Shown here one piece after another: positions 30,882 through 37,329 of a DNA stretch of 37,333 bases. The position numbers were made by a program, and so were the translations under genes. This DNA is from an uncultured Porphyromonadaceae bacterium. Its GTDB lineage: Bacteria; Bacteroidota; Bacteroidia; Bacteroidales; Muribaculaceae. The notes below the pieces were generated by a model, which was given only the letters and a program-made list of their open reading frames with translations, was not told the origin of the DNA and searched no databases. The DNA is taken from contig CAMWNB010000024.1 of the NCBI GenBank assembly GCA_947175495.1, positions 1 through 37,333 of the forward strand, in the 5' to 3' direction. Position 1 is the first letter of the stretch. Each line of letters begins with the position of its first letter.

Positions 30882-31382
30882 ATGAAACAGATATCGCGCA
30901 CATTCTTATTAGCGGCAATATTCGTAAGCCTGCTCATAGTGTCCGTGGCCTATCATTCCGACCGGCGCGACACACGCATTGGCGCCCACGCACCCGCCCT
31001 ATCCTTCGACAGCGAGCCATCCGAGGCGCTCAGCGCGCTCAAAGGCAAATATGTGCTGCTGTGCTTCTGGTCGTCCACCAATGCGCCTTCGCGCGAAGCC
31101 GTCAACGTGTACACATCGTGGCTGCAGCGGCAGACCGACACAGACATCGGCATGATAGCGTTCAACTTCGACAAGTCCGAACCGCTGTTCCGCGAGATTG
31201 TGAAGCGCGACGGGCTCAATCAGGAACTGCAGTTCCGCCTCAGCGACGAACGCGCCGCACGCCTGATGCGCGACTACCACCTCGCTCCCGGCGACTACGG
31301 AACCCTCCTCGTCGCACCCGACGGCCGCATTCTCGCCCACAACCCCTCCCCCGACTCCATAGCCAGCATAATAAAGGTATAA
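30882..31382 (+). CDS. thioredoxin-fold (TlpA-like) protein lacking the CxxC active site
   Basis: A 166-aa envelope protein with an N-terminal signal or anchor helix (about 7-25, TFLLAAIFVSLLIVSVAY). A redoxin domain follows: KGKYVLLCFWSSTNAPSREAVNVY, then IGMIAFNFD, and YGTLLVAPDGRILAHNPSPD with the cis-Pro region replaced. Where TlpA proteins have WCxPC, this one has TNAPS, so both redox cysteines are gone. Only one cysteine remains, just before the motif. It therefore cannot act as an ordinary thiol oxidoreductase; a binding or chaperone role is possible. Monocistronic; the start follows a TATAATG-like stretch and no clear -7 element is adjacent. Confidence 0.8.
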   Translation: MKQISRTFLLAAIFVSLLIVSVAYHSDRRDTRIGAHAPALSFDSEPSEALSALKGKYVLLCFWSSTNAPSREAVNVYTSWLQRQTDTDIGMIAFNFDKSEPLFREIVKRDGLNQELQFRLSDERAARLMRDYHLAPGDYGTLLVAPDGRILAHNPSPDSIASIIKV

Positions 31383-31398
31383 GATTTCTTAAAAACGG

Positions 31399-31429
31399 GT
31401 TGCTATTTCAATTTCTTTTGTTACATTTG
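31399..31429 (+). promoter_or_regulatory. promoter of gdhA
   Basis: TACATTTG (31422-31429) matches TAnnTTTG. GTTG at 31399-31402, 19 bases upstream, matches TTTG in three of four bases. Predicted start near 31436 gives a leader of about 270 bases. Confidence 0.65.
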
Positions 31430-31435
31430 CAATGT

Positions 31436-31704
31436 TAATCTTAAGAGCCGGTTCGACAATAAAAGCCAAAACTCTTGCTCACCGGCCCACATTAATATAT
31501 TGTAAATACATCACAGTTTCAGAAATGACAATAACCCCGGTAGACAAAAAATTACCGACGCCTCGCACATCACGGGTGCTTCTCGGCCTGTCCATCGGTC
31601 GTGTGCGTCAAGCACACTCCCTCACCGCAGGTCGGGAATCGCGCCATGCCATGCGACCCTGCCGTTGACTTTTATGTCGAGCCGGTCCTAAACATCTATA
31701 CCAT
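31436..31704 (+). promoter_or_regulatory. long structured 5' leader of gdhA (candidate cis-regulatory RNA)
   Basis: The 31383-31704 gap has no credible gene. CCGGTTCGACA (31448-31458) pairs with TGTCGAGCCGG (31675-31685) with one G-U pair. After one bulged A, TAAAAG (31460-31465) pairs with CTTTTA (31669-31674). This makes a closing helix of about 17 bp around some 200 bases. Inner hairpins: CGGTA/TACCG (31538-31557), GTGTGC/GCACAC (31601-31617) and GCAGGTCG/CGACCCTGC (about 31627-31662, one bulge). GCCGGT (31447-31452) can instead pair with ACCGGC (31481-31486), competing with the closing helix. I do not recognise a known riboswitch class. Confidence 0.55.
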
Positions 31705-33042
31705 ATGGATATTAACAAAATCATGGCCGACCTGGAGGCAAAGCACCCGGGTGAAAAAGAATATCTGCAGGCCGTCAAAGAAGTGCTCATGTCCGTACAG
31801 GACGTTTACAACCAGCATCCTGAATTCGAGCGCAATAAAATCGTGGAGCGCATGGTCGAACCCGACCGCATCGTCACCTTCCGCGTAACCTGGCTCGACG
31901 ACAAAGGCGAAGTTCAGAACAACATCGGCTACCGCGTGCAGTTCAACAACGCCATCGGCCCGTACAAAGGCGGCATCCGCTTCCATGCATCCGTCAACCT
32001 CTCCATCCTCAAATTCCTCGGCTTCGAACAGACATTCAAGAACGCCCTCACCACCCTGCCCATGGGCGGCGCCAAAGGCGGCAGCGACTTCTCGCCCCGC
32101 GGTAAGAGCGACCGCGAAATCATGCGCTTCTGCCAGGCATTCATGCTGGGCCTGTGGAAAAACCTCGGTCCCGACCGCGACGTGCCCGCCGGCGACATCG
32201 GCGTAGGCGGCCGCGAAGTCGGCTACATGTACGGCATGTACAAGCGCCTCGTCAACGAGCACAACGGCACCTTCACCGGCAAGGGACTGAGCTTTGGCGG
32301 CTCCCGCATCCGTCCCGAGGCCACCGGCTTCGGCGCCCTCTACTTCGTGCAGAGCGTGCTTAAGGAAAAAGGCGACAACATCGCCGGCAAGACCGTGGCC
32401 ATCTCCGGTTTCGGCAACGTGGCATGGGGCGCAGCCCTCAAGGCCACCGAGCTCGGCGCCAAAGTAGTGACCATCTCCGGCCCCGACGGCTACATCTACG
32501 ACCCCCAGGGCCTCGACGCCGAAAAGATCGACTACATGCTCGAACTCCGCGCCAGCGGCAACGACATCGTAGCTCCCTACGCCGAGAAATTCCCCGGCAG
32601 CGAATTCTTCCCCGGCCGCAAACCCTGGGAACGCAAGGTCGACATCGCTCTCCCCTGCGCCACACAGAACGAGGTGAACGGCGACGATGCCAAGCAGCTC
32701 GTCGACAACGGCGTGGAACTCGTGGCCGAAGTCAGCAACATGGGTTGCACCCCCGAAGCCATCGACACCTTCATCGACGCCCGCGTCACCTACGCTCCCG
32801 GCAAGGCAGTAAATGCCGGCGGCGTGGCCACTTCCGGCCTTGAAATGAGCCAGAACGCCATGCACCTGCAGTGGAGCGAAGCCGAAGTGGACGAAAAGCT
32901 GCACACCATCATGCGCGACATCCACGAGCAGTGCGTCAAGTACGGCCGCCAGGCCGACGGCTACATCAACTACATGAAGGGCGCCAACATCGCCGGCTTC
33001 ATGAAAGTGGCCGACGCCATGATGGGCCAGGGCGTATGCTGA
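31705..33042 (+). CDS. gdhA: NADP-type glutamate dehydrogenase
   Basis: Assimilates ammonia by reductive amination of 2-oxoglutarate to glutamate. The 445-aa hexameric type matches NADP-dependent bacterial enzymes. The substrate-binding NNAIGPYKGGIRFH (81-94) and catalytic Lys124 in PMGGAKGGSDF are intact, as is Asp163 in VPAGDIGVGGRE. The Rossmann domain is near 235-245 (VAISGFGNVAWGAA). The start codon follows a short AT-rich region after the structured leader, so initiation could respond to leader folding. Monocistronic with its own promoter and terminator. Confidence 0.97.
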   Translation: MDINKIMADLEAKHPGEKEYLQAVKEVLMSVQDVYNQHPEFERNKIVERMVEPDRIVTFRVTWLDDKGEVQNNIGYRVQFNNAIGPYKGGIRFHASVNLSILKFLGFEQTFKNALTTLPMGGAKGGSDFSPRGKSDREIMRFCQAFMLGLWKNLGPDRDVPAGDIGVGGREVGYMYGMYKRLVNEHNGTFTGKGLSFGGSRIRPEATGFGALYFVQSVLKEKGDNIAGKTVAISGFGNVAWGAALKATELGAKVVTISGPDGYIYDPQGLDAEKIDYMLELRASGNDIVAPYAEKFPGSEFFPGRKPWERKVDIALPCATQNEVNGDDAKQLVDNGVELVAEVSNMGCTPEAIDTFIDARVTYAPGKAVNAGGVATSGLEMSQNAMHLQWSEAEVDEKLHTIMRDIHEQCVKYGRQADGYINYMKGANIAGFMKVADAMMGQGVC

Positions 33043-36688: not shown

Positions 36689-36888
36689 GACCCCGTTCCC
36701 CAATATTTGTTAACGCCGGGGCGGTCAAGCGTCGTGCAGATGTGTTCGCGCAGTGAGGGAGCAATGCGGTTGCATTGTGACCGAAACAAGCGGACGCTGA
36801 TGCATGACGATTGGCCGAGGCGATGGTAATTTATGCCACGGAGAACAGAGAATATATGTTGTCGTGATGAATTAGCGTTTAGGCAGAA

Positions 36889-37329
36889 CTATACGAAGCG
36901 CAACATAAACATTGCACACGCCGCCATTGCAACCCCTTTGGCGGTGTGAAGAAACTGTTCGTAATTTCTGTTTAATCTTCTGAAGGACCCAAGCCAAGAA
37001 AAGGTACGTTCCACAACCCACCTGCCGTTAATCGGCTTGAATTCCGATGTTCCGAAATTCGATTTCACACACTCCAATGCCACATTCAGCCCTTCCATCA
37101 AGTTTTTCACTAAAGGGCCGCGATATCCGTTATCTGCCTTTAACATTCTGATGGTAGGATATTTACAAACTACATCAATAGATTTCCATTGACATCCTGT
37201 CTTAATAAGGAAAAATAAGGCATTGAGAATCTCAAATATGTCGGCCTTTGATTTTGTTTTGAAGATTTCAGGAAATTGCTCTAAAATAAAGTTACGTTGT
37301 CTAAGCGTCAAATCTGTAGTATATCGCAA
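36889..37329 (-). pseudogene. internally deleted IS5-family transposase, partial at window edge
   Basis: The 146-residue frame begins like an IS5-family (DUF4096-type) transposase: MRYTTDLTLRQRNFILEQFPE...NALFFLIKTGCQWK. It then jumps near residue 50 (about base 37180) to the C-terminal third: YPTIRMLKADNGYRGPLVKNL and INGRWVVERTFSWLGSFRRLNRNYEQ, ending AMFMLRFV. About 100 residues are missing in frame, including the first catalytic Asp; the second Asp (KADNGY) and Glu (VVERTF) remain. It cannot be an active transposase alone. The TTG at 37329 is four bases from the window end, so the true start may lie beyond it. Terminal inverted repeats were not identified. Confidence 0.8.

Follow-up and report, generated by a model that had tools for sequence, protein, structure and literature searches.

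The window, by which we mean the whole 37,333-nucleotide stretch of DNA that was analyzed, carries the glutamate dehydrogenase gene gdhA, whose leader (nucleotides 31436 through 31704) spans the gap from a promoter box to the ATG at 31705. The box conforms to TAnnTTTG, which we take to be the Bacteroidetes-type promoter consensus and have assigned to gdhA. A preliminary description of this DNA had proposed that the leader is a noncoding, riboswitch-like structure that senses nitrogen status, and had offered the alternative that its two paired ends are the terminal inverted repeats of a small inserted element. The features relevant to both proposals are collected in Table 1.

Table 1. Features of the gdhA leader and of a related element in the window.
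Feature	Position	Strand	Basis or remark
gdhA, glutamate dehydrogenase, 445 aa	31705..33042	+	Pfam PF00208/PF02812, NCBIfam NF010633
Promoter -7-like box of gdhA, TACATTTG	31422..31429	+	Upstream of and outside the insertion; read from the letters
IS5-family MITE, 244 bp, in the gdhA leader	31445..31688	.	Ends, target duplication, empty site
TAA target duplication (3 bp), left copy	31442..31444	+	Abuts element end
Right copy of the target duplication, TAA	31689..31691	+	Abuts element end
Left terminal inverted repeat (5′ arm of closing helix)	31445..31465	+	Same sequence ends ISs and MITEs in several congeners
Right terminal inverted repeat (3′ arm of closing helix), somewhat decayed	31669..31688	-	Comparison of ends, pair probabilities
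Subterminal rod hairpin at the element's right end	31561..31667	- (inward strand)	Covariance model R1, 80.7 bits, E 3.4e-17 (a match by construction, because this rod is one of the 28 seed rows of the model)
Second, similar element, truncated where the contig ends	36689..37333	-	End repeat GACCCCGTTCCCC...; also a model seed

The leader RNA is predicted to fold strongly, with a minimum free energy (MFE) of -85.8 kcal/mol; shuffled sequences average -59.7 (z -5.98), and none of 200 dinucleotide shuffles reached as low a value. The long closing helix of the preliminary description was borne out: the MFE structure contains pairs 31447-31457/31676-31686 and 31460-31465/31669-31674, and the partition function of the full leader gives these pairs probabilities of 0.98-1.00, except for 0.88 at 31447, with a single bulged A that alternates between 31458 and 31459. 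The proposed competition between this helix and a local pairing of GCCGGT (31447-31452) with ACCGGC (31481-31486) fared differently. The letters are indeed complementary, but the competing state is not supported by our two-state test, which consists of equilibrium predictions: the pairing probability is 0.0 in the full leader, and a 60-nt leader prefix able to form it folds at -9.7 kcal/mol (z -1.40), with 16 of 200 shuffles as good. The description of the leader as noncoding holds broadly, yet there is a 47-codon ATG frame (31525-31668, + strand) that crosses the inserted element and stops 36 nt before the gdhA ATG and that, if translated, could serve as an upstream ORF of gdhA. The Rfam scan that had been suggested for the leader gave no match (Rfam 15, 31380-31760, E≤10). 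The sole Rfam match in the window is a truncated tRNA gene at the contig edge (1-54, - strand), away from the leader.

Comparison with related species revealed an empty site. A match to the window glutamate dehydrogenase at E≤1e-100 is present in 46 of 48 genomes of the genus, and we compared the leaders at the 29 best-scoring congener loci with sequence (L147-L175). All 29 carry a TAnnTTTG box no more than 300 nt upstream of gdhA, the nearest one lying 32-154 nt (median 61) from the ATG; in the window this distance is 275 nt. Conservation of the closing helix in relatives was not found, as none of the 29 loci has a match resembling the terminal inverted repeat within 300 nt upstream of gdhA, nor does any of these leaders match the rod model R1 described below. 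The closest congener (G040, 96% protein identity) shares with the window 24 identical nucleotides in a row that include the promoter box, as well as the tail ACATCTATACC, and joining the window flanks by one TAA yields a short leader that aligns with the G040 empty site. The empty site was aligned against both G040 and G008. Two further observations concern these loci. A weak rod match (32.9 bits) occurs in G006 about 950 bp upstream of gdhA, outside the leader (L166, 3785-3891), and a second glutamate dehydrogenase (about 59-64% identity) is encoded in 14 of 48 genus genomes, with a single one seen in the own genome.

The left end of the leader structure recurs elsewhere in the genome, as the preliminary description had suggested checking. 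Used as a query against the own genome, the leader found, besides itself, 18 short matches at E≤10; six of them, the four best included, lie within query bases 1-28. The 18-base end repeat, allowing up to three mismatches, was found at eight places, the gdhA one included, compared with two for the reversed control. Within this draft genome (95.8% complete), we found neither a second full copy of the window MITE nor any transposase match beyond the fragment in this window. That IS5 transposase fragment (36895-37176, - strand, 54% identity) belongs to the second element of Table 1, where it lies beside a rod (36711-36819, + strand) that is also among the seeds of R1; the end repeat of this element, GACCCCGTTCCCCAATATTTGTTAACG, is preceded by TAA. 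The end of the second element recurs at the start of contig C32 (L093). Lone 18-bp element ends, mostly intergenic, occur at L089, L091, L092, L094, and L095, and no partner ends were noticed by inspection of the 300 bp shown on each side. One lone end sits between two genes directly past a stop codon, and one adjoins a tRNA gene (Pro by eye).

Paired ends are found in congeners. A genus search (49 genomes, own included) with the leader identified 36 genomes with a match at E≤1, and nine congeners (G012, G013, G017, G020, G022, G023, G034, G041, and G046) have 8-18 matches each, to the end repeat, the inner part, or both; G012, for example, matches positions 106-265 of the leader query at 78%. 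Left-end repeats occur as pairs, mostly 250-1150 bp apart. We retrieved 20 congener regions and could delimit an element for a duplication test in 16, of which 13 carry an exact 3-bp TNA duplication immediately outside GAGCC...GGCTC or a relative of it, as judged by eye; the exceptions are L134, L139, and L140. At L140 (G017:C29), two element ends are fused head to head into a near-perfect 35-bp sequence without an interior.

One of the retrieved regions, L126, is a full IS of 1147 bp that encodes a 250-aa transposase with DDE_Tnp_1 and DUF4096 domains, which is recognized by the NCBIfam IS5 family model NF033580 at 161.8 bits (cut-off 110). The left end of the window element is identical over 19 bp to one L126 end (94.7% to the other) and, in L127 and L128, to each of the two ends. 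Two G012 MITEs align with element positions 97-241 at 77-79%, and one end of L126 aligns with positions 100-241 at 69%; the IS L127 matches over 35 bp only (83%) and at the end repeats. The ∼97 bp inside the left repeat have no match beyond the repeat among the other retrieved elements, so that the left rod is missing. Transposase relatives at E≤1e-10 were found in 16 of 48 genomes, the fragment in this window among them. L136 is derived from L126 by deletion (606 bp remain, in two parts that are 99.8% and 98% identical) and shows how MITE-like elements arise from an IS. We take the TNA duplication to be the mark of the IS1031-like group of IS5 (an ISfinder rule), which makes the elements putative members of that group.

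These data show with high confidence (probability about 0.95) that the leader segment is a non-autonomous IS5-family MITE that inserted between the gdhA promoter and ATG and duplicated TAA. The shared ends, the TAA duplication, and the empty site thus vindicate the alternative that had been offered alongside the riboswitch proposal, and both of the refuting observations named in the preliminary description spoke against the riboswitch. The leader folds strongly because the MITE inserted between promoter and start codon: the 17-bp closing helix is the two terminal inverted repeats of the MITE, and the large inner hairpin is the subterminal rod of the IS5-type element family. The 244-bp element holds no ORF of at least 100 aa and is too short for a transposase, and an IS5-type transposase presumably mobilized it in trans. 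The window copy is decayed, with the left rod absent and the right rod weak on the inward strand. Folded alone, rod 31561-31667 gives z -1.55 on the inward strand (13 of 200 shuffles as good) and z -3.18 on the outward strand, and the gdhA mRNA bears the complement of the inward rod strand. Moreover, several positions of the right repeat deviate from the consensus, which means that this copy is not fresh.

Other explanations for the leader fit these observations less well. The strong fold, the site directly before gdhA, and the alternative complementary hexamer had suggested control of gdhA by a cis-acting riboswitch or attenuator responsive to nitrogen status. We now regard such a regulator as very improbable, given that all 29 congener leaders lack a repeat-like match, that Rfam gave no match, that the competing helix has negligible probability, and that related sequence lies at other places in other genomes. 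Two more candidates were also rejected, namely a regulatory RNA specific to gdhA, by its absence from the 29 congener leaders, and an RNA known to Rfam, by the lack of a match for the leader or for six element loci. Invertible promoters with inverted repeats are present in Bacteroides capsule loci, and here inverted repeats lie about 200 bp apart in a Bacteroidales leader. However, the only TAnnTTTG box in the 300 nt before the ATG is outside the repeats, the same repeats are element ends elsewhere, and the leader is an insertion relative to its relatives, all of which leaves a phase-variable promoter segment with almost no likelihood. A co-opted MITE, whose insertion materially controls gdhA mRNA stability or translation, for example through RNase III cutting of the inverted-repeat helix or translation of the 47-codon frame, deserves more weight, although we consider it rather unlikely. 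The whole element fits into the interval from the conserved promoter box to the ATG, the 47-codon frame is present, and MITE helices are described as RNase III targets in Neisseria (PMC10969869). Against co-option, this species is the only one with the insertion among the gdhA leaders examined, so there is no sign of selection for its retention. As a plain insertion, the MITE would now be at most a structural passenger in the gdhA mRNA that senses no ligand; by analogy with RNase III and Correia elements, it may lower or shift gdhA expression via RNA structure or double-strand-specific processing.

The rod itself was examined across the element family. Folding of whole elements and of their ends places a rod of ∼95 nt that starts 22 bp inside the element ends. 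We folded 38 ends and aligned 28 of them, read inward from the tip, by sequence alone (MAFFT, alignment A2). The rodless ends (the left end of the window element, L133_r, L139_r, and L143_l) were left out, as were six ends with rods close to rows that were kept (L133_l, both ends of L135, both ends of L136, and L145). A 35-pair structure was taken from the fold of L137_l, from which the four innermost apical pairs were dropped because the alignment is shifted there. With this structure, 90.1% of 980 cells in the 28 ends pair, whereas the shuffle mean is 67.7% and sliding the partners by 1-3 positions gives 35-48%. Compensatory changes occur in 31 of the 35 pairs (shuffle mean 22.2), and the covariation score is 0.664 versus 0.251 for shuffled and at most 0.161 for slid pairings. 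The sequences are diverged, with a mean pairwise identity of 60% among the 28 ends, and the left and right ends of the same element are 42-61% identical (11 elements). Note that A2 was used in place of an earlier mixed alignment (A1), in which the apical hairpin is off by one base between types; RNAalifold predicted 21 pairs from A1, of which 11 have both partners changed, and the covariation term was weak (-0.46 kcal/mol).

At E≤1e-5, model R1 yielded 126 matches, which are spread over 79 loci, several of them overlapping, and the window. In the 99 distinct rows, 88.0% of cells pair versus 64.7% when shuffled, and the score is 0.668 versus 0.236, in an alignment that was fitted to the model. 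The matches form 36 distinct inward-facing rod pairs; a further 32 rods have no partner within their locus, and some of these sit at the edge of a contig or locus. Of the 36 pairs, 26 are flanked by a TNA duplication at a distance of exactly 22 bp from the rods (two pairs are too short to test); these paired-rod elements overlap the 16 delimited elements tested above. The transposase gene lies between two rods in L126, where it is intact, and in L127 and L278, where it is interrupted. A search of Rfam with six element loci gave no match at E≤1.

Rods (E≤0.001) occur in 36 of 48 genus genomes, own included; the own genome has 13 matches, and the highest count for a single genome is 62. Among relatives, 26 of 59 genomes have rods, own included. 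Across the order they were found in 8 of 295 genomes (own included) and across the phylum in 1 of 395, the own genome; these negatives are soft, as 13 and 9 candidates per genome were scored, respectively, and the own-genome count itself fell from 13 to 12 to 9 from the genus to the order to the phylum search as fewer candidates were scored. The apical pattern GARGGAGY...RYGACYGA has 78 matches order-wide, 11 of them in the own genome, where the reversed control has none (counted from tables). Outside the own genome it is at chance level, with 67 matches against ∼72 for the reversed control, and consequently only hairpin-forming cases count there. By eye, real hairpins among the 67 comprise four of five in G163, one of two in G156, one in G129, and one of three in G187. 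Hairpins resembling GA-RG-GAGY...RYGAC-YGA were seen in other families of the order (G163, G156, G256, G253, G129, and G187; example loci L224, L221, L223, L220, and L268-L271), some of them without obvious IS5 ends.

The mismatches suggest which strand is selected to fold. Read inward, the apical part has the form GA-NN-GA-[6-7 bp]-GA-N′N′-GA, and 26 of the 33 representatives (taken at 80% identity) have all four GA of the two loops. Counted over the 28 ends, there are 84 G-U pairs to 21 A-C (69 to 21 once a single, mostly G-U column is set aside) and 59 G-A mismatches to 1 T-C, counts to be read with the caveat that the rod structure was drawn from inward-strand folds. Because of this G-U and G-A excess, selection for folding seems to act on the strand that runs inward from the tip, either as RNA or as single-stranded DNA. 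Quasi-palindrome correction is a known mutational process, and such correction through template switching would create paired changes without selection for a folded strand. It would also erase mismatches and be strand-neutral, so the conserved GA mismatches that are kept, together with the strand bias of the G-A and G-U counts, speak against it, and we judge it an unlikely source of the compensatory changes.

A role of the rod in cis is likely for the element family, because many MITEs without a transposase keep both rods. In L126 and L127, a rod lies ∼80 nt upstream of the transposase start and hence would be included in any transcript that enters from outside. Shielding against transcription from outside is a mechanism known from other ISs. 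We tentatively propose, at slightly less than even odds, that an IS5 lineage of Muribaculaceae-like Bacteroidales and its MITEs carry a rod of fixed geometry with tandem GA/GA loops that is selected as the inward single strand. This would be a previously unreported RNA or single-stranded DNA module needed in cis, either as a shield against transcription from either side or as a structure that a host factor or the transposase recognizes. A decayed example of this module would then be present in the gdhA leader.

The elements resemble several known systems. Like IS5-family ISs, they combine a DDE_Tnp_1/DUF4096 transposase (NCBIfam IS5) with a 3-bp TNA duplication and inverted ends, and the TNA duplication is shared with the IS1031-like group; the covarying ∼95-nt rod inside the ends is the feature that sets the elements described here apart from that group. 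We know of no description of such a rod in IS5 elements. The accessible parts of the open PubMed Central literature likewise yielded no description of a rod at both ends of an IS5 element. The bridge RNA of IS110 derives from one end of the IS, whereas the rods are found at both ends and are kept in MITEs that lack a transposase; the transposase of IS110 is of a different family from that of the IS5-type elements. The resemblance to IS110 is that a structured RNA resides in a non-coding IS end (PMC11208160).

The sequence of Correia elements is presumably unrelated to that of the window MITE. Correia elements (CREE, NEMIS) of Neisseria are, like the element described here, MITEs present in transcripts, and RNase III cuts them at their inverted repeats (PMC10969869; PMC2649163). 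Bacteroidales MITEs with IS5-family ends are already represented by BrickBuilt, MITEPgRS, MITE239, and MITE700 of Porphyromonas gingivalis, whose ends match IS5-family ISPg elements (PMC4596501). The predicted long stem loops of BrickBuilt come from internal direct repeats (PMC4596501), in contrast to the fixed rod at the ends in the present elements. In Cardinium, a MITE derived from IS982 is described (PMC9769881).

For gdhA, the finding removes one false riboswitch candidate, and it cautions that a leader invaded by a MITE can look like a riboswitch, with a long closing helix, inner hairpins, and a very low folding energy. The structured ends deserve attention beyond gdhA, given their strong covariation in diverged sequences, their abundance of up to 62 matches per genome, and the lack of an Rfam family. 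If it is true that the movement or silencing of these elements needs a single-strand structure at both ends, this would, to our knowledge, be new for IS5-type elements.
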